From an uncultured Methanobrevibacter sp. (GTDB taxonomy: Archaea > Methanobacteriota > Methanobacteria > Methanobacteriales > Methanobacteriaceae), in assembly GCF_947169325.1 (NCBI RefSeq), contig NZ_CAMVPN010000016.1, forward strand, positions 1-36,401: 36,401 bases of DNA, written 5' to 3'. A model generated the notes under the pieces. That model worked only from the letters and a program-made list of their open reading frames with translations, was not told where the DNA came from and ran no database searches. Shown here one piece after another: positions 4,669-31,973 of this stretch. The translations under genes were made by a program, and so were the position numbers. Position 1 is the stretch's first letter, and the number at the start of each line of letters is the position of its first letter.

Positions 4669-4717
4669 AAAAAAAATAATAAAAAAAGAAGAGAGAATTA
4701 AAGAAAATTCAATTCTC
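4669..4717 (-). terminator. Terminator after the TIR-domain gene
   Basis: Minus-strand GAGAATT and AATTCTC (4711-4717 and 4693-4699) form a 7-bp stem overlapping the TGA stop. TCTTCTTTTTTTATTATTTTTTTTT follows in two blocks of Ts, a typical archaeal oligo-T stop. It separates the TIR gene from the Ig-like gene, so the two need not share one full-length transcript. Confidence 0.65.
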
Positions 4718-5699
4718 AGACATATGATATCTCAGTCCCATTGCATTCAGCCAATACAGTACCTTTACTACTTTTAAGCTGCAATGAAACCTTTTCAACG
4801 ACGTCAGAACCTGTGCTTGCAGAGGCCAGTATGCTGGAGCCGTTAATGTCTTTTCCAGCAAACACTTTCTGATCCGTGCAAACAACATCGTCGTATCCGT
4901 CATAAAATTCCGAATAAACCGTATAATCCTTGGACGGATTTATAATACCTGAAAGGGTTCCAGATACATTATATGAATAGTTCCACGGATAATCACTATC
5001 CTGTTCGACCTTAAATGAATCTATCGTCATTTCAATATTGCCCACAACATCATCTGAATCATCCCCACCGAAACCAACCAAAGCAACCACTGCAATAATT
5101 GCAATCAATATGACTGCACCGATTATAATATGGGGCATTTTAATATTCAAATTAGACATGTTGAATTTAGAAGGTTTTTCAGGTTCATAATGAGCTCTTG
5201 GGACCGGTTTAGTGTATGTTACCGTACCATCGGAAATATCAAAACCGTTTTGCCTGAATGCTTTTTCACACCTGAAATGATATTCCTTTTCATCCATGCT
5301 ATACTTCAGGATAGCCTGCAGAGAACCCATACCCAGTTTAAGTCCAGGCGGCAACTCGGTTTCTTCAAGATATATGGCAAGAAAATGTTTTTTCTCATGA
5401 AGCGCATAATTAATTTCATTTCTAACATTGATTGACTCTGCTGATGTGCGTGAAATGAAAACAATAAACAACGAACATCCGTCAAGAGCCTCTCCAATCT
5501 CTTCAGTCCATTCATTACCCGGTGCAATACCCTGATCATACCAGATATTTAATCCCAAATCATTCAGCCGTTTTAGCTCTGGAAACACCATGTGCGCATC
5601 CGCATGAGCATAACTGGCAAAAATGTAAGGTTCATCACCTTCATAAGCATGAAATGGAGCTTCTTCAACAAAAGGCATTTTAGTAACTTTTTCTAACAT
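4716..5699 (-). CDS. Membrane-anchored TIR-domain protein
   Basis: The protein has 327 residues. Residues 24-135 form a TIR_2-type domain: Y-I-F-A-S-Y-A-H-A-D at 25-34, W-Y-D-Q-G-I-A-P-G-N-E-W at 53-64, and L-F-I-V-F-I-S-R-T-S-A-E-S at 77-89. Next is V-R-N-E-I at 92-96, where Glu95 occupies the usual NADase catalytic position. A flexible stretch precedes one transmembrane helix (about 190-210). Residues 211-327 form a predicted exported beta-rich domain with N-x-S/T sites. TIR domains either cleave NAD+ or act as protein-protein adaptors; the intact Glu allows the first. The architecture suggests an outside-in sensor rather than a soluble defence effector, but no partner is visible. AAGGAG lies 6 bases before the ATG. 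Confidence 0.85.
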   Translation of the reverse strand: MLEKVTKMPFVEEAPFHAYEGDEPYIFASYAHADAHMVFPELKRLNDLGLNIWYDQGIAPGNEWTEEIGEALDGCSLFIVFISRTSAESINVRNEINYALHEKKHFLAIYLEETELPPGLKLGMGSLQAILKYSMDEKEYHFRCEKAFRQNGFDISDGTVTYTKPVPRAHYEPEKPSKFNMSNLNIKMPHIIIGAVILIAIIAVVALVGFGGDDSDDVVGNIEMTIDSFKVEQDSDYPWNYSYNVSGTLSGIINPSKDYTVYSEFYDGYDDVVCTDQKVFAGKDINGSSILASASTGSDVVEKVSLQLKSSKGTVLAECNGTEISYV

Positions 5700-11694: not shown

Positions 11695-12897
11695 ATGGTA
11701 GAAGAGATTACATATTTTAAAGGAACTCATAGAGTTATTGCTCCAAGCAAAACTATTGAAATCAATCAGGACAAGCTTAAAACAGCAGGAATCACACGTA
11801 TTGCAGACATTACCGATTTGGATAGAATCGGCCTTCCGATTTATACTGCAATCAGACCTACAGCTGAAGAAGGCAGCGTCAGCATCTATGGCGGGAAAGG
11901 AATATCAAAAGACCATGCAAAAGCATCAGCAATGATGGAAGGTTTTGAGAGATATTCCGCAGAAAGGCAAAGCAGTGATAAGACCATCAATGCCAGCTTA
12001 TCTGAAATTTCCGACTACGGAGAATTCATTGAACCGAAATTATTGAACCTGCCAAAGGAATTTGAAAAACAGGATATTGATGATTTGAACTTGGAGTGGA
12101 GCATTTCCCATGACATAATTTCCGGAAATGACTATTACGTTCCTACAAATGCAGTCTTTCACCCATACAATAACGAAAGTAATGTAAACAAGCTATTTAA
12201 ATCTAACACCAACGGCCTTGCTTCAGGAAATATTTTAGAAGAAGCCATTCTTCACGGAATGCTTGAAGTTATCGAGAGGGATGCATGGAGCATTTTTGAG
12301 CTGACCCATAAAAATTATGCCCAGATTGATTTAAGCAGCATTGAAAGCGATTTAATCAATGGCATCATCGACAAATTTGAATCAGAAGGCATCAAGATTA
12401 AATTGATGGACTTTACTGCCGATGTTAAAATTCCTACAATAGCTGCTTCCGCTGATGATACAGTAACAAAGGATGCAGGATTATTGACTTTGGGAATGGG
12501 AACACATCTTGACCCAGAAGTTGCAATACTCAGAGCATTAACTGAAGTGGCACAAAGCAGGGCAACTCAAATCAATGGTGCACGTGAAGATACCGTGAGA
12601 GCGGATTTTGCCCGTGAAGCAGGCTATGAACGCATGAAACGAATTAACAAATTCTATTTCAGACAAGAAGAGAATCAGATTTCTCTTTCAGACATTGAAA
12701 ATAAAAGTACAACATCAATTACAGAAGACATTGAGATTGTTAAAAATGAATTGATGGCCAACGACATTGAAAAAATATTATATGTTGACCTGACACGTCC
12801 GGAGCTTGACGTGAGCGTTGTACGGGTGATAATTCCTGAAATGGAAATTTATGCAATTGACCAAAGCCGTGCGGGATATAGATTTTTAAGAGTTTGA
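11695..12897 (+). CDS. ycaO: YcaO-domain ATP-dependent cyclodehydratase/thioamidation protein
   Basis: The 400-residue YcaO-fold protein has the acidic ATP/Mg motifs of the family: A-S-A-M-M-E-G-F-E-R-Y-S-A-E at 77-90, E-E-A-I-L-H-G-M-L-E-V-I-E-R-D-A-W at 182-198, and a later A-L-T-E-V-A-Q-S-R-A. YcaO enzymes activate a backbone amide with ATP. Paired with TfuA in methanogens, they convert a glycine of the methyl-CoM reductase alpha subunit to thioglycine. The tfuA gene starts 4 bases downstream, which supports that role. It is not part of a RiPP cluster: no precursor peptide or dehydrogenase is nearby. It is probably co-transcribed with the M50 protease gene; a frame from the ATG at 11695 gives the full N-terminus. 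Confidence 0.9.
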   Translation: MVEEITYFKGTHRVIAPSKTIEINQDKLKTAGITRIADITDLDRIGLPIYTAIRPTAEEGSVSIYGGKGISKDHAKASAMMEGFERYSAERQSSDKTINASLSEISDYGEFIEPKLLNLPKEFEKQDIDDLNLEWSISHDIISGNDYYVPTNAVFHPYNNESNVNKLFKSNTNGLASGNILEEAILHGMLEVIERDAWSIFELTHKNYAQIDLSSIESDLINGIIDKFESEGIKIKLMDFTADVKIPTIAASADDTVTKDAGLLTLGMGTHLDPEVAILRALTEVAQSRATQINGAREDTVRADFAREAGYERMKRINKFYFRQEENQISLSDIENKSTTSITEDIEIVKNELMANDIEKILYVDLTRPELDVSVVRVIIPEMEIYAIDQSRAGYRFLRV

Positions 12898-12901
12898 TTA
12901 A

Positions 12902-13555
12902 ATGGTTAAGATTATAATTTATACCGGTCTGTCACTTCCTTTTGATGAGGCAAAAGAAATTCTGGATTCACATGATGACGTTAATGTAGTCTATAAAAGA
13001 CCTATCCAGAGAGGGGATTTGTCACTTGCATTAAAGGAAAATCCAGACATCATTGCAATAATCGATGGAGTATTTCACCAAAATTCCGCTGTCGGACACA
13101 AAGAAATAATCAATGTCATGGATCATGGAGTAAAAGTCTATGGTGCTTCAAGCATGGGTGCATTGAGAGCATCAGAACTTGATTCACTTGGAATGGTTGG
13201 AGTAGGTTACTGTTACAACCAATATGCCAATGGTAATGTCGACAGTGACGATGAAGTTGCAGTAATGCTCGATTCAGAGACTTTAGAGGCTCTTTCTGAA
13301 CCGTTAATCAACATGAGATATGTTTTCACTAACGCTGAGGATGAAAACATCATTACCGAAAGCGAAAAGGACGAACTGATCGGCATTGCCAAAAGGACTT
13401 ATTATCCTAAAAGAAATTACGGAAAAGTTTTGGCCGAATCTGACCTGGACAGTGACAAAAAAGACAATCTCATCAACTTTATCAGGGAATCAAAAGACAT
13501 CAAAAAAGAGGATGCCAAGAATCTTCTCAAGCTAATCAAATCACAGTCAGATTAA
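12902..13555 (+). CDS. tfuA: TfuA-like partner protein of YcaO
   Basis: The 217-residue protein has the TfuA-like core: I-I-Y-T-G-L-S-L near the N-terminus, I-I-D-G-V-F-H at 52-58, the G-A-S-S-M-G-A-L-R-A-S-E motif at about 80-91, and G-V-G-Y-C-Y further on. In methanogens TfuA is thought to deliver sulfide, or help position the substrate, for YcaO-mediated thioglycine formation in McrA. The gene is 4 bases after ycaO. No strong ribosome site is visible, suggesting coupling to ycaO translation. A T-rich stretch (about 13577-13591, TTTATTATTTTTTG) follows the stop and probably ends the operon. The 217 bases before the next gene hold nothing else I can assign. Confidence 0.9.
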   Translation: MVKIIIYTGLSLPFDEAKEILDSHDDVNVVYKRPIQRGDLSLALKENPDIIAIIDGVFHQNSAVGHKEIINVMDHGVKVYGASSMGALRASELDSLGMVGVGYCYNQYANGNVDSDDEVAVMLDSETLEALSEPLINMRYVFTNAEDENIITESEKDELIGIAKRTYYPKRNYGKVLAESDLDSDKKDNLINFIRESKDIKKEDAKNLLKLIKSQSD

Positions 13556-16744: not shown

Positions 16745-16792
16745 TAATCTAGAATCTAATTTTTTTTATTAAAATAATTTTTCATTCATGTG

Positions 16793-16866
16793 AAATAACT
16801 GACATTAACAATCGATTTGAAGCTATGGGACTCATTTAATCAGTTATTTGAAAAATTAGCCGATTG
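16793..16866. repeat. Interleaved inverted repeats in an intergenic region
   Basis: AAATAACTGA at 16793-16802 is complementary to TCAGTTATTT at 16840-16849. CAATCG at 16809-16814 is complementary to CGATTG at 16861-16866. The two pairs interleave (A-B-A'-B'), the order of an H-type pseudoknot, or they could be two operator dyads. They lie in the 266-base divergent spacer between the amidohydrolase and the Ntn-hydrolase-like gene. No other feature is seen there apart from promoter-like AT-rich stretches. Confidence 0.35.
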
Positions 16867-17010
16867 AACCATTTTAAATTTTTACATGCAAAACTAAATA
16901 TTTCATTAAACTCGTTAATTTACAATTTTAAATCAATATGAAATTTTATTTGTTGAAAACTTAAATATAATGAGGTTAAAGATAATTTTAACAAAATTTA
17001 GAGGATTATT

Positions 17011-18114
17011 ATGACAGTACAATTCAGTATAATCAATTCAAGAAGACATATTTTTGCAAGCGACGATGGGATTACAACACCTGACGGTAAAAAATATGAC
17101 GGCATGCAGAAAATTTTCAAATTGTCAGACATCCATCCTGCCCAAATGATGATTAATGGATGCATGGAATTTGAAGGCATCCCTATGGAGACCATTATTA
17201 ACGAATTTGTTAAAAAGACCAAATTAAAAGAGTTAAAAAATATTGAAGACATTAAAAACGAATTGATAAATTTTTTAGCCAGATATACTCCAAAATCATC
17301 TGGAGATGAGTACATTCAATATGCGGTTGAAAACTTCAAAGAAAATATAATTCTAGAGATTAACGAAAATGGATTTGACAAAGCGATCGAAACTAGAAAA
17401 AAGAAAAAGATATATCCTTTCATTAGAAAATATTCTAGATTTAAAAATGAGTTTGACGAAATTATCCCCGAAGATAAAGATTGCAAAAAATATTCTAAAA
17501 TACTCTGGGAGATATTTTCATATGAACTTAGATATGAAGGAACAGGAGTTATAATTTCCGGACATAATATTGGAAGTCCATATCCTTCATTCTTTGAAAT
17601 CAATATCCATTGCAATAGTGGTGGAAAAATCTTCTATGAAGAACTCGAATCAAAAATTGATTTTAAAGAAACAATCATGAGAGTTCATGCAATTAATGAG
17701 GAGGGTTATGCTTTTTTTACAGGAGTAAATGAGAATTTTGTACGGTTTATTGATAATTATATCAATGAAACCAACGAAATAATTTTACTAAAATTAAAAT
17801 CTAAACTAAAAAAAGAAAACATGACCGACGATAAATTTTTAAAAATTGTCGAAAAAATACTCCTCGAAGAGTATTCTGATGTCAATCATGAAATTAATAA
17901 TTTCAGATTAATTGGAATTAATGATACCTCCAAATCCATTGAATTCATACCCAACATATTACTTTGCATTTTAGCTGATGAAATAATTCGTTTAACTGCC
18001 TTAAAGCAGAAAATATCCTCTGAAGAGGAATATGTGAGTATGACCAGCCATATTTCATTAATGACAAAATCTCAAGGATTTAAATGGGTTAAATTCAATG
18101 ATGAAATCATTTAA
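17011..18114 (+). CDS. Stand-alone proteasome-like Ntn-hydrolase candidate
   Basis: The 367-residue protein begins M-T-V-Q-F-S-I-I-N. If the initiator Met is removed, Thr becomes residue 1. Then Asp falls at 17 (F-A-S-D-D) and Lys at 33 (M-Q-K-I-F-K), exactly the numbering of the 20S proteasome beta catalytic residues Thr1, Asp17 and Lys33, with no gap. A strand M-M-I-N-G-C-M-E-F-E-G follows, where the beta subunit has its Gly47 region with a 2-residue insertion. The remaining 300 residues are mostly helical, charged and unassigned. The likeliest reading is a distant Ntn peptidase or a homologous non-peptidase. AGAGGATT precedes the ATG. A 39-residue ORF follows 37 bases downstream. Confidence 0.7.
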   Translation: MTVQFSIINSRRHIFASDDGITTPDGKKYDGMQKIFKLSDIHPAQMMINGCMEFEGIPMETIINEFVKKTKLKELKNIEDIKNELINFLARYTPKSSGDEYIQYAVENFKENIILEINENGFDKAIETRKKKKIYPFIRKYSRFKNEFDEIIPEDKDCKKYSKILWEIFSYELRYEGTGVIISGHNIGSPYPSFFEINIHCNSGGKIFYEELESKIDFKETIMRVHAINEEGYAFFTGVNENFVRFIDNYINETNEIILLKLKSKLKKENMTDDKFLKIVEKILLEEYSDVNHEINNFRLIGINDTSKSIEFIPNILLCILADEIIRLTALKQKISSEEEYVSMTSHISLMTKSQGFKWVKFNDEII

Positions 18115-18151
18115 ATATAATGAAAAACAATTAATGATAAAAGGTGAAAAA

Positions 18152-18271
18152 ATGAATTTTGTACCAAAAGAAAGAGCAGAAGCTAGTATAAATAAGCTCC
18201 TTTCAGAACGCAGAAAACGTAAAATGAAAGAAATCGAAGAAATGAAAATAGAATATGAAAATTCTAAATAA
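18152..18271 (+). CDS. 39-residue charged helical protein
   Basis: A short frame starts at the ATG at 18152 after a textbook AGGTGA ribosome site (18142-18147) and ends at TAA 18271. The product is very charged, with a basic middle (S-E-R-R-K-R-K-M-K) and alternating Glu/Lys (E-I-E-E-M-K-I-E-Y-E), and is probably one amphipathic helix. It lies 37 bases after the Ntn-hydrolase-like gene on the same strand, so co-transcription is likely. Function is unknown; a regulator, inhibitor or substrate of the neighbour is possible. It could also be a fortuitous frame, but the ribosome site argues against that. Confidence 0.55.
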   Translation: MNFVPKERAEASINKLLSERRKRKMKEIEEMKIEYENSK

Positions 18272-18390
18272 AATCTAATGGATTTAACAAAACATTAACA
18301 AATCATTAGATTTTAAATCGCACCAAACACCACTTTTAAATACAGATTACTGTAAAACTTTTCTTTCAAAAATCACTTCAAAAAAAGTAA

Positions 18391-18422
18391 TATATAAAAA
18401 AAACTATATACTTACTATATAC
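18391..18422 (+). promoter_or_regulatory. Cluster of three TATA-like elements
   Basis: TATATAAAA at 18391 and two copies of ACTATATAC (18403-18411 and 18414-18422, 11 bases apart) precede the zinc-ribbon gene. The last is centred about 27 bases before the GTG at 18445, so it could drive a leaderless transcript. The direct repeat of the box, one helical turn apart, may also be a regulator site. Confidence 0.4.
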
Positions 18423-18444
18423 AAGACTGACATAACTTTTTTTG

Positions 18445-19038
18445 GTGATTTCCATTAACTCTCAAGAAATAAGATACTTCTACAGGAACATTGTAAAAAC
18501 TGGCGATGTATATAGAGTTAAACATAACAATAAAGATTATGGGGAGTTTTCTAAATTATCCGACGCATTATATGAAAGGGATGCTCTGTTTTTCTGTAAT
18601 TTTGACTATGACCTGCTTGTTGAATGCGATCTTGAAAACAAGTATGAAAACATGGAACTGCCACCATTTCCCGAAAAGAGACCTAAAGGACGTATAAAAG
18701 GAACAAAAGTCAACAAAAAGGAAAGGGAAGGGGAAATTCTTTTTGACCATAAGAAAAAAGGTTTTTTCATTAAAAGAATGGGTGAAATCATCGGCTATTA
18801 TGACACCATGACTGAAGCATTCTACTACAAAAAGCTTTTGATGGACAGCAACTGGGATAAAAGCGTCCTAAAAACAAACATCACACAAAAAATTGAAGTC
18901 AATATCGTTATCGATCAAAGCAAAGAGTATAAGGTTCAGCTTAACTTCTGTCCTAAGTGTAAAAGCAGGCTTAAAATCGGTGCGACAGAATGTCCTTCCT
19001 GCGGTATCAACATTGAAGAATACCTGTTCAATAATTAA
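18445..19038 (+). CDS. Zinc-ribbon protein with two AP2-like modules
   Basis: The 197-residue protein contains two similar modules of the pattern Y-R-V-K-x-N-x-K-x-Y-G-x-F-x-x-L-x-x-A-L-Y-x-R-D-x-L. They fall near residues 22-50 (Y-R-V-K-H-N-N-K-D-Y-G) and 106-134 (F-F-I-K-R-M-G-E-I-I-G-Y-Y). Each looks like three strands and a helix, as in AP2-like DNA-binding domains. A basic linker (K-R-P-K-G-R-I-K-G-T-K) lies between them. The C-terminus has a zinc ribbon C-P-K-C...C-P-S-C-G. A DNA-binding role is inferred, not shown. The start is uncertain: GTG 18445 (leaderless) or TTG 18442. The GGTGAT that could be a ribosome site overlaps both, and would only suit a non-standard ATT at 18454. Confidence 0.65.
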   Translation: MISINSQEIRYFYRNIVKTGDVYRVKHNNKDYGEFSKLSDALYERDALFFCNFDYDLLVECDLENKYENMELPPFPEKRPKGRIKGTKVNKKEREGEILFDHKKKGFFIKRMGEIIGYYDTMTEAFYYKKLLMDSNWDKSVLKTNITQKIEVNIVIDQSKEYKVQLNFCPKCKSRLKIGATECPSCGINIEEYLFNN

Positions 19039-28537: not shown

Positions 28538-28571
28538 CTAGTTCAACTAGCTTTTAACTTTTTTTATTTTT
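28536..28571 (+). terminator. Terminator after nadA
   Basis: AGCTAGT, loop TCA, ACTAGCT forms a 7-bp stem beginning at the nadA stop codon. TTTAAC, seven Ts and further Ts follow. It lies at the convergent junction with the first alpha/beta-hydrolase gene and extends into that gene's last codons. Confidence 0.75.
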
Positions 28572-29510
28572 AAATTGTTTTAAAAATGATATTATCTCAA
28601 AACCCATATCAGAATAATCTTCTTCATCATAATAATTTTCAGTTTTAGATGGGAATACAATAACCTTTGAATCATTAATTAAATCTGCTAAAGGGAGAGT
28701 ATCTTTTTGAGGATTGAAAAACAAATACCCTTCAACACCTAAAATTAATGATTTGGCTTTAACATTATGCAGTTTATCCTCAACATCAAATTTTAGCATG
28801 CAATCGTTTCTAGATTTAAAATCATGAATATCTATAAATAATCCATCATCAACATAATCTTCCATCAATGCGTCTATCTCATCATTAGACAGGTTTTCTA
28901 CAACATTAGTTGGAAAATAACCTGCAAATAACAATCTAAATAACGCAACAGACAACATGGAAAAAGAAGAACTGTAATTATCTGTGTAAAAATCCTCAGA
29001 GGATTCAATTATACTTTCAGCACATTTAACAAAAATATAACGATGAGCATATGTTTTAAAAGAGGAATTTAAAACTATAATGAATTCCATGTCATCAGGA
29101 TATTCGCAAGCCCAGGTAAATACTTCAAATCCACCAAATCCCTCTCCAATCAATCCTAAACAATTTTTAATATTGAATTTTTCGGCCAAAAACTGCCTTT
29201 TGAAATTTACACGATCCTTAAAAGTATAACTTGGAAAATTATATTTCAAACCGGTTGTTGATGGAGAACAAGACCCCGGAACTCCCAATGAGAAAATATT
29301 AATGAAAAAAAATTCATTCTTATCAAAATCCTGATTTCTAATTAAATCATGGTGTTTGGCTAAAATGGAACGCCCTCCATAAAGGTTGGGGCAATAAACA
29401 ATTGCATTTACAATGTTTCCATTCTCATCATATTTTGGGATTCCACTGACGCCATATTCAACATTAACGTTTTCAAGTATTTGACCTGACTCGAATTCAA
29501 AAGAATCCAT
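28554..29510 (-). CDS. Alpha/beta-hydrolase paralog lacking the catalytic triad (copy 1)
   Basis: This 318-residue protein is related to the homoserine O-acetyltransferase-like branch of alpha/beta-hydrolases and is a paralog of the genes at 29614 and 31023. The nucleophile elbow reads G-E-G-F-G-G (122-127), so the serine is Gly124. The acid position is Tyr and the histidine position is Asn when aligned with the copy at 31023 (S125, D263, H293). The core S-C-S-P-S-T-T-G-L-K and V-N-F-K-R-Q-F-L segments remain intact, so it looks like a folded pseudoenzyme rather than a decayed gene. Its closest relative is copy 2. The N-terminal M-D-S-F-E-F-E-S-G matches copy 3. No clear ribosome site precedes the ATG. 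Confidence 0.82.
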   Translation of the reverse strand: MDSFEFESGQILENVNVEYGVSGIPKYDENGNIVNAIVYCPNLYGGRSILAKHHDLIRNQDFDKNEFFFINIFSLGVPGSCSPSTTGLKYNFPSYTFKDRVNFKRQFLAEKFNIKNCLGLIGEGFGGFEVFTWACEYPDDMEFIIVLNSSFKTYAHRYIFVKCAESIIESSEDFYTDNYSSSFSMLSVALFRLLFAGYFPTNVVENLSNDEIDALMEDYVDDGLFIDIHDFKSRNDCMLKFDVEDKLHNVKAKSLILGVEGYLFFNPQKDTLPLADLINDSKVIVFPSKTENYYDEEDYSDMGFEIISFLKQFKNKKS

Positions 29511-29613
29511 AACATAAATGCCACTTTCAACATTAAATTTAGTATAAATAATACCACAACCATTTTAGAATACCAATAACATTTAAAATTAAATATCTGT
29601 GTGAAGAAACTGA

Positions 29614-30606
29614 TTATTCCTTAATGTCATTTAAAAATTCATTAAAATCATCCATTAAAGGAGTATAATCCACATAACCACTAGGATCTTTCTGTGATTC
29701 ATAAAGAAGAATTTTGGAATTTTCAATCAAATCTTCTAAAGGAACAGCATCATGCACAGGAGAAAAATATAAATGATCAGGTGAACTGATAATAAATGCC
29801 TTTGCCTTGATGTTTTTCAACTTGTCTTCAACATCATAATCTATTATACAGTCATTCCTGAATTTAAAGTCATAAATATCAGTGAATAAACCTTCATCCA
29901 CAAAATCATCCATCAAAACATCGATTTCATCATTTGACATTTCCTGAAAGATCTGCTTTGAAAAATGGTTTGAATAAAGCAACCTATAAATGGAAACCAT
30001 CATACGGGACAAGGTTTCACTGTAAATCTCATTATAAAAATCATCAGTGGATTCAATTATGCTGTCTATAGCTTTAGAGATAACATATCTATATCCATTC
30101 GTTTTAAAGGAACTGTCTCCTACAATGAAAAAATCCATTTCATCAGGATATTCGCAGGCCCATGTATAAATTTCATAACCTCCGACTCCACGGCCGGCAA
30201 GACCATGAACCCTATCCATATTGAACTTTTCTTTTAGGAATTGCCTTTTAAAATTGACCCTGTCCTTAAGAGTATAACTTGGAAAATTATGTTTAAGTCC
30301 TGTTGTTGATGGAGAACATGAATTTGGAAATCCCAAAGATGTAATAGATATAAAACAATAATCATTATAGTCAAAGGGTTCGCCTTCCCCCGTAAGATGA
30401 TATTCATCCAGATATGAAGAGTAGTTTCCATTGAATTTATGACAATATATGATTGCATTCGTTATTCTACCTTCATCATCATATTTTGGACTACCGTAAA
30501 CAGAATATTCTACTTCAACATTTTTAAGAACATCCCCATTTTCAAAAGAGAATTCGTCCATAATATGTCGGCCATAACCCAAAATAGACTCATCATCACT
30601 AAACAT
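29614..30606 (-). CDS. Alpha/beta-hydrolase paralog lacking the catalytic triad (copy 2)
   Basis: This 330-residue paralog has the elbow sequence G-R-G-V-G-G (138-143), with Gly140 in place of the nucleophile. By alignment the acid position is His and the histidine position is Pro. It is very similar to copy 1 in S-C-S-P-S-T-T-G-L-K-x-N-F-P-S-Y-T and V-N-F-K-R-Q-F-L, so the two probably arose by a late duplication after the triad was lost. It carries 15 residues before the M-D-E-F-S-F-E-N-G start equivalent. I keep this longer form because AGAGGT precedes the ATG at 30606, while the inner ATG has no ribosome site. Ligand binding or dimerisation with the active copy are possible roles. Confidence 0.82.
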   Translation of the reverse strand: MFSDDESILGYGRHIMDEFSFENGDVLKNVEVEYSVYGSPKYDDEGRITNAIIYCHKFNGNYSSYLDEYHLTGEGEPFDYNDYCFISITSLGFPNSCSPSTTGLKHNFPSYTLKDRVNFKRQFLKEKFNMDRVHGLAGRGVGGYEIYTWACEYPDEMDFFIVGDSSFKTNGYRYVISKAIDSIIESTDDFYNEIYSETLSRMMVSIYRLLYSNHFSKQIFQEMSNDEIDVLMDDFVDEGLFTDIYDFKFRNDCIIDYDVEDKLKNIKAKAFIISSPDHLYFSPVHDAVPLEDLIENSKILLYESQKDPSGYVDYTPLMDDFNEFLNDIKE

Positions 30607-30757
30607 AATTTACCTCTAAATATTCAATTTATTATCTAACATATATAAAATTACCCCATTAAAAAAATAGAGTATAACATTGTTTAAAAAATAGAGCCTA
30701 GTTTAATTCATGTGTAAAAAAAATAAAATAATAAATTAAAAATAATGCCAAAAAAAG

Positions 30758-31033
30758 TCACATGTCTTCTAAAAACCCTGACAGAAATACATTCATTTCA
30801 ATTTCCTCACGGGCTATGAAGTCATCCAATCTGATTTTGGCCACATCACTTTGAAATGGATATAACTCATCATCAAAATACATCCTCACTTGAAAAACCT
30901 CGCCGTTAATGTCAGTTTCCTCAACAAGATTTTCGCTTAGATACTCCATTTGCCCCTCTGACAGACCAGTCACATCATAGACAATGTAGTTTTTATCATC
31001 TATTCTCCCATAATCAACAATATTAACTATCAT
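30758..31033 (-). CDS. Small acidic protein of unknown function
   Basis: The 91-residue protein starts M-I-V-N-I-V-D-Y-G at the ATG at 31033, overlapping the end of the active alpha/beta-hydrolase gene by 11 bases. GGGG lies upstream as a possible ribosome site. It is acidic, with predicted strands and helices (Y-I-V-Y-D-V-T-G-L-S-E-G-Q-M-E-Y-L; F-Q-V-R-M-Y-F-D-D-E), and has no membrane segment. I do not recognise a domain. The overlap indicates coupled expression with the hydrolase at 31023, which makes an accessory role plausible. The 151 bases between it and copy 2 are AT-rich and carry two AAAAAATAGAG words. Confidence 0.65.
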   Translation of the reverse strand: MIVNIVDYGRIDDKNYIVYDVTGLSEGQMEYLSENLVEETDINGEVFQVRMYFDDELYPFQSDVAKIRLDDFIAREEIEMNVFLSGFLEDM

Positions 31034-31973
31034 CAAACTGCCCCAGGAAATCTTCCAGTTCATATGAAATGTTTTCAAGCTCGTTAAAGCACAGATGCCC
31101 CAATTCAGAGTCCATTATTATCAATTCGGAATCTTCAATCATTTCAGACATCGGGATTGCATCAAGTTCCGGCGGGAAATGCGGATCCTGCTTGCATGCA
31201 ACAATCAGCACTTTGGATTTGATTTTGTCCAAATCCGCTTCGACATTAAAGTTCATGCTGGCCCCATTGCAGTATTTCAAATCGTAAATGTCACTTTCAA
31301 TCATTTCATTTCCAAAATCCTCAAATTCAATTGCCAATTCTTCATTGGTTTTTGCCCTTAGGGCCTCTTTTGAAAGACCAAAATTGAATTCGGCGAGACT
31401 GGCAATTCTTAAGGTTCTGATTAGAGAATAAGTGAGTTCCCCTTTTGCATAGTCAGGGTCTGATGTGATGATCTCATCGACGAAATTTGATAAAATGAAA
31501 TCATGTCCTGCAACCTTATAGCTGCTTACGCCGCAAATGATGAAGTCCTGAAAGTCAGGATATTCAATGGCCTGAGTCAGACCGACAAAACCTCCCATTG
31601 AATTTCCAATTAATCCCAGTACATGCTCAATTCCAAATTTCTCGGCCAAAAACTGCTTTTGGAAATTCACAACATCTCTCATGGTATATTTTGGGAATTT
31701 ATTTTTAAGACCTGTCAATGAAGGAGAACATGATCCTGAGGAACCTAAAGCAGTCATGCTGATAAAGAAGTATTTTTCACCGTCAAACGGACAGCCTTCA
31801 AAGGTCAACGGCAATATCTTGTTGATTCCCATAAATGAGCCTAAAGAACCTGCACAATAAAGAATTGCATTTTTAATCAAACCGTTTTCATCATATTTTG
31901 GAGTCCCATAAGTCATATATTCGACTTTAACGTCCTTCAGCACTTCACCATTTTCAAATTCAAATGAATCCAT
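31023..31973 (-). CDS. Alpha/beta-hydrolase, homoserine O-acetyltransferase-like, intact triad (copy 3)
   Basis: The 316-residue protein has a complete alpha/beta-hydrolase triad: Ser125 in G-N-S-M-G-G (123-128), Asp263 in K-Q-D-P-H-F-P-P and His293 in E-L-G-H-L-C. Overall it resembles MetX-like acyltransferases, which use the same triad to acylate homoserine. It lacks enough family-specific residues for me to assign that reaction, so a hydrolase or acyltransferase of unknown substrate is the safe call. It is the only one of three tandem paralogs with the triad. The ATG at 31973 is weakly supplied (AAAGGAAAG 8 bases upstream) and overlaps the stop of a possible 19-codon leader ORF. The small acidic protein gene overlaps its 3' end. 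Confidence 0.82.
   Translation of the reverse strand: MDSFEFENGEVLKDVKVEYMTYGTPKYDENGLIKNAILYCAGSLGSFMGINKILPLTFEGCPFDGEKYFFISMTALGSSGSCSPSLTGLKNKFPKYTMRDVVNFQKQFLAEKFGIEHVLGLIGNSMGGFVGLTQAIEYPDFQDFIICGVSSYKVAGHDFILSNFVDEIITSDPDYAKGELTYSLIRTLRIASLAEFNFGLSKEALRAKTNEELAIEFEDFGNEMIESDIYDLKYCNGASMNFNVEADLDKIKSKVLIVACKQDPHFPPELDAIPMSEMIEDSELIIMDSELGHLCFNELENISYELEDFLGQFDDS

Follow-up and report, generated by a model that had tools for sequence, protein, structure and literature searches.

In 2021, Fuchs, Alva and Lupas named 22 proteasome-like families whose function is not known and whose gene neighbours were reported to be uninformative (PMC8665760). A long insertion after helices H1 and H2 together with a second one between H3 and H4 occurs in just two of these, PMI-3 and PMI-4; PMI-4 (proteasome homolog with multiple insertions 4, uncharacterised) is the only one of the two recorded in phages and across a wide range of bacteria and Euryarchaeota (PMC8665760). 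Here we analysed 36,401 nucleotides of a contig from an uncultured gut archaeon, Methanobrevibacter sp. (the window; NZ_CAMVPN010000016.1), and describe P0001, a PMI-4-like proteasome homolog of 367 amino acids encoded on the forward strand (17011–18114), and a small charged companion gene that follows it (18152–18271, forward strand). Computation recovers a conserved catalytic register, a fold of the N-terminal nucleophile (Ntn) type with two insertions, linkage to the companion, insertion of the pair between core genes and a habit of travelling as cargo. We consider it likely that P0001 is an N-terminal threonine hydrolase and, jointly, that it forms a two-gene module with the companion.

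The protein begins MTVQFSIINSRRHIFASDDGITTPDGKKYDGMQKIFKL (translation of 17011–18114), and the ribosome-binding-like sequence AGAGGA (17000–17005, forward strand) lies 6–11 nucleotides upstream of its ATG. With the initiator Met counted, the relevant residues are Thr2, Phe15-Ala16-Ser17-Asp18 and Lys34-Ile35-Phe36. An earlier reading of the sequence alone (the sequence-only reading) had proposed that, once Met is removed, Thr1, Asp17 and Lys33 fall in the gapless numbering of proteasome beta subunits, with FASD at 14–17 and KIF at 33–35, and that no propeptide is needed; the translation bears this out, and Thr directly follows Met throughout the family. The codons of the candidate nucleophile Thr2 (17014–17016), Asp18 (17062–17064) and Lys34 (17110–17112) are all on the forward strand. 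Of 352 open reading frames (ORFs) in the window and in related loci, 10 combine all three residues, and each of these starts like the P0001 family, so the register is not due to chance.

Ten Methanobrevibacter homologs with 23–45% identity share 10 invariant columns, including all three residues, and Asp18 and Lys34 are invariant in three family alignments. The family also extends to phages, plasmids and the prophages of E. coli, and 142 viral contigs carry homologs. In a set of 57 non-redundant homologs, Asp18 and Lys34 are universal (57/57 each) and position 2 is Thr in 56 and Ser in one (L114); these counts are partly circular because the pattern used to collect the set required Asp and Lys and allowed Thr, Ser or Cys. 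The viral N-termini provide an independent test because the 80 viral loci retained were picked by C-terminal patterns only: 76 show the N-terminal Thr/Ser/Cys...Asp...Lys pattern, inspection adds three more, and for the remaining locus no N-terminus was located. Near the position of the oxyanion-hole Gly47, P0001 has G50, a residue that is Gly in 36 and Asn in 15 of the 57 homologs. The sequence-only reading had noted a Gly in a strand after the catalytic residues; the Gly stands, in strand 44–50, but it corresponds to a place near the oxyanion hole and not to the S1 pocket. Glu340 (codon 18028–18030, forward strand; Glu in 50/57) aligns with proteasome Asp166 and may stand in for it.

An AlphaFold2 model of P0001 built from ten sequences (predicted local distance difference test (pLDDT) 86.6; predicted template modelling score 0.80) has strands at residues 4–8, 12–18, 35–39, 44–50, 178–185, 192–203, 206–215, 222–226, 346–352 and 356–361, with helices between 44–50 and 178–185 and between 222–226 and 346–352. 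This order of strands and helices is that of a proteasome beta subunit. All 50 PDB matches listed by Foldseek for the model are proteasome subunits (best E 3.5e-6, probability 1.00), and the 50 listed for a model of a phage homolog, built from 41 sequences (pLDDT 91.3), are proteasome or Anbu. One of the alignments used for structure prediction was built without rows from annotated phage records. The alpha-beta-beta-alpha sandwich is predicted in both models, and P0001 is modelled as a complete Ntn fold interrupted by two helical insertions. The ‘300-residue helical extension’ described earlier did not survive this comparison: strands at 178–226 and 346–361 complete the sandwich, and the second half of the Ntn fold, along with two helical insertions, lies in the C-terminal part of the protein. 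Homologs keep Thr2, Asp and Lys and the predicted fold is of the Ntn type; both points, which the sequence-only reading had named beforehand as places where it could fail, support its assignment of P0001 to the Ntn-hydrolase superfamily.

Profile comparison points the same way. Alignment with archaeal beta subunits by hhalign (p 7e-5; 2.3e-5 with the insertions cut out) pairs T2 with T1, D18 with D17 and K34 with K33 in exact register, and the motif VGGxxDVAxIxK, in a separate C-terminal stretch, is aligned to the final beta-subunit strand. Homologs match PF00227, TIGR03634 and a PHROG HslV family below threshold but in register; PF00227 did not match P0001, and the homolog L026 scored 15.1 bits, under the gathering cut-off of 22.4. 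Searches of Pfam, NCBIfam and PADLOC with P0001 returned nothing significant, and neither phmmer nor a 10-row profile found more than chance or weak matches among PDB sequences, although the weak proteasome ones are in register.

P0001 fits PMI-4 because its two insertions and the range of its family across phages, bacteria and Euryarchaeota match PMI-4 alone, a placement made by architecture and distribution rather than by direct comparison with the reference HDY66466.1. Like PMI-4, it has Thr1, Asp17 and Lys33, no propeptide, a long insertion after H1/H2 and a second between H3 and H4 (helices around residues 98–157 and 241–310 of the model, with exact placement relative to H2 uncertain), and its family likewise occurs in Euryarchaeota, many bacteria and bacterial phyla, and phages. 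The two differ in gene context, which was uninformative in PMC8665760 and includes a small companion gene here. All ten archaeal homologs also match PHROG 5990 (best 3.5e-69), which carries no assigned function and which phage members match over their full length. The protein was ‘unrecognised’, as the sequence-only reading put it, in Pfam and NCBIfam, but not with respect to PMI-4 and PHROG 5990. The catalytic register, predicted fold and C-terminal strand motif are shared with the 20S proteasome beta subunit, from which P0001 differs in its lack of a propeptide, its two long helical insertions, the loss of Ser129 and Ser169, and its companion gene.

In a phylogenetic tree, P0001 lies in a four-member Methanobrevibacter clade (100/100) nested in an archaeal clade (100/100), itself nested in the phage family. 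Relatives of about 308 and about 270 amino acids from the same archaea branch outside the P0001 family. The former, presumably PHI, share the insertion after H1/H2 with P0001 but form a separate clade (100/99) and have, judged by length, no H3/H4 insertion; no companion ORF was found in the flanks examined of these PHI-like proteins or of the smaller relatives. Members of both groups (about 308 amino acids, L235, L236, L237, L241 and L243; 267–287 amino acids, L238–L240) start with Met-Thr, lack a propeptide and contain ASDS/ATDS and GGxxDVA motifs.

The companion of P0001 encodes 39 amino acids, MNFVPKERAEASINKLLSERRKRKMKEIEEMKIEYENSK, and starts 37 bp past the P0001 stop; an in-frame ATG at 18098 would extend it to 57 amino acids. 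We counted as companions ATG-initiated ORFs of 34–100 amino acids that start within −45 to +70 of the protease stop. Such an ORF is present at 48 of 51 non-redundant family members; among other genes in these loci, 42 of 194 have one (Fisher p 3e-22), and local composition predicts about 8 in 51. Two more members have companions with GTG starts. This near-constant small gene linked to a PMI-4-like protease is new here: we found no published description of it, and several annotated records list companions as hypothetical proteins. The sequence-only reading did not mention it. Companions are charged (34% Lys, Arg, Glu and Asp), and their rate of evolution exceeds that of the protease about two- to threefold; in close pairs the proportion of synonymous differences (pS) is well above that of non-synonymous differences (pN), indicating purifying selection. 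Shared motifs are confined to single subfamilies: one phage group, for instance, has ELREWQKxFNPS, and the P0001 clade has MxFVPKExA; no recognisable common motif was found across subfamilies. When a profile of P0001-clade companions was run against 18 genomes, five of them had strong matches, 11 in total, at loci where a P0001-type protease, or what is left of one, is present; some are tandem copies. In gammaproteobacterial phages (for example L052, L057, L099 and L104), many companions have an aromatic motif at their C-terminus (such as YFNW, FSFSW, RSFTW or LFCW), which might dock into the enzyme.

The two genes lie in a segment (16788–18430, forward strand, ends approximate) that is absent from relatives. 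We conclude that it was inserted because, of 16 relatives without the protease, 15 have the flanking core genes, encoding an amidohydrolase and a Zn-ribbon protein, next to each other with 106–208 bp between them. Orthologs occupy the same site in two genomes (G018 and G022), both frameshifted, and several relatives carry broken protease copies. Assembly error was rejected as the sole cause of the frameshifts: in copies L003 and L022, at least, stops come with deletions and look like real decay. The genome of the window contains two further damaged copies (L183, C40:1917-3013; L190, C1:44069-44580); an open companion ORF lies downstream of the first, and the second, a remnant, has a shorter companion-like match. 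The Zn-ribbon gene (18442–19038) was considered as a partner and rejected, as it is present in all 25 genomes of the genus that were searched, with or without the protease.

Elsewhere, homologs are found in mobile elements. Streptococcal phage satellites carry the homolog near the end of their cargo genes; in E. coli lambdoid prophages it occurs at two different sites, once opposite in direction to its neighbours; in other phages it lies beside lysis genes or at the prophage end, and it is also carried on plasmids. Archaeal copies adjoin terminase and integrase genes. One copy (G128) adjoins the PglZ–BrxL genes of a BREX system, and another archaeal copy lies beside a PADLOC defence-candidate gene. 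At L196:162-10642, a PMI-4 homolog follows PglZ and a BrxL that itself carries fused DUF4145 and DpnI_C domains, and in a Rhizobium plasmid island (L234:9699-13484) multiubiquitin and ThiF genes lie near a PMI-4 homolog and an integrase.

In the mechanism that we propose, removal of Met would expose Thr1, which would attack an amide bond with the aid of Lys33 and Asp17. A proteasome-type ring would probably be blocked by the two helical insertions, one ahead of strand S7 and the other between H3 and H4, following the steric argument of Fuchs et al. (PMC8665760). The hydrolase would work with the charged partner of about 39 amino acids encoded just downstream, which might inhibit it, present it or be its substrate, and the pair would constitute a mobile cassette, located between core genes here and carried as cargo of prophages, phage satellites and plasmids elsewhere.

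Several observations weigh against this proposal. Foldseek superposition over the whole chain is poor (root-mean-square deviation about 13–23 Å; target-normalised template modelling score 0.35–0.58); loose superposition is expected because the insertions are long, and the structural match is therefore limited to the core. Proteasome Ser129 and Ser169 are not conserved, Ala-Gln and Val standing at the places aligned with them, and the GGxxD motif of most homologs is missing from P0001, its clade having lost the GG. Companions differ so greatly between subfamilies that they may not all be of common descent. Clear defence neighbours, which bear on a role in conflict, are present at few loci only, and we found nothing specific in the literature on a defence role of proteasome-like proteins.

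The missing serines and the lost GG motif would suit a catalytically dead structural or binding protein built on the Ntn fold, but Thr2, Asp18 and Lys34 are the best-kept positions of the family, even in the diverged clade of P0001, and we regard this alternative as very unlikely. P0001 could instead be a housekeeping or stress peptidase that supplements the archaeal 20S proteasome and is not tied to mobile elements. Its locus is among core chromosomal genes and its orthologs are under purifying selection (pN 0.16–0.21 versus pS 0.58–0.71; ratios of the dN/dS type (non-synonymous to synonymous rates) of 0.09–0.22 against two orthologs, with synonymous sites near-saturated). Yet the gene is missing in most relatives, with an empty site in 15 of 16, many copies are frameshifted or fragmentary, homologs are cargo in phages and satellites, and the host already encodes its own 20S alpha and beta subunits; such a role is improbable.

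Two further alternatives, each rather unlikely but less so than these, give the companion a specific part. A toxin–antitoxin-like pair, in which the free hydrolase is harmful and the companion neutralises it, would account for the two-gene layout, the small, charged and fast-evolving partner and the mobile location, although the companion is downstream and not upstream. The companion also remains open at most loci with a broken protease; we rejected toxin–antitoxin logic drawn from this survival, which is by estimate no better than chance because the companion has about one-eighth of the length of the protease. The second is a connectase-like protein ligase or modifying enzyme with the companion peptide as its specific substrate. 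Connectase is likewise an archaeal Ntn relative without a propeptide, and is monomeric, and the nearly constant co-occurrence of companions, sometimes in tandem, is consistent with this idea. However, connectase lacks H1/H2 and is marked by a two-helix insertion between strands S3 and S4, and P0001 shares neither trait: its model has helices of the H1/H2 type and no helix between residues 18 and 58, the S3/S4 insertion is also absent from the phage homolog model, and companions have no recognisable common motif.

For P0001 and its companion, the likeliest use is conflict between mobile elements or against phages, which we suggest tentatively on the basis of context. PMI-4-type homologs and their companions would then possibly, at somewhat less than even confidence, constitute an undescribed, protease-based conflict module of two genes that archaea, phages and phage satellites carry; its Ntn enzyme, derived from the proteasome but not part of a ring, would be controlled by a dedicated peptide or act on it.

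Other genes of the window were noted by eye: an ORF with an N-terminal TIR-like domain (FASYAHADAH...) and a membrane segment (4716–5699, reverse strand), a gene pair resembling YcaO and TfuA (11695–13555, forward strand), and three related alpha/beta-hydrolase-like genes in a row that resemble homoserine acetyltransferase (28554–31973, reverse strand).

The companion gene and the mobile-cargo habit offer a practical way into one of the largest proteasome-like families of 2021, and suggest that relatives of the proteasome serve in phage–host conflict. With members in archaea, phages and E. coli prophages, the function of this enzyme family is testable in laboratory strains.
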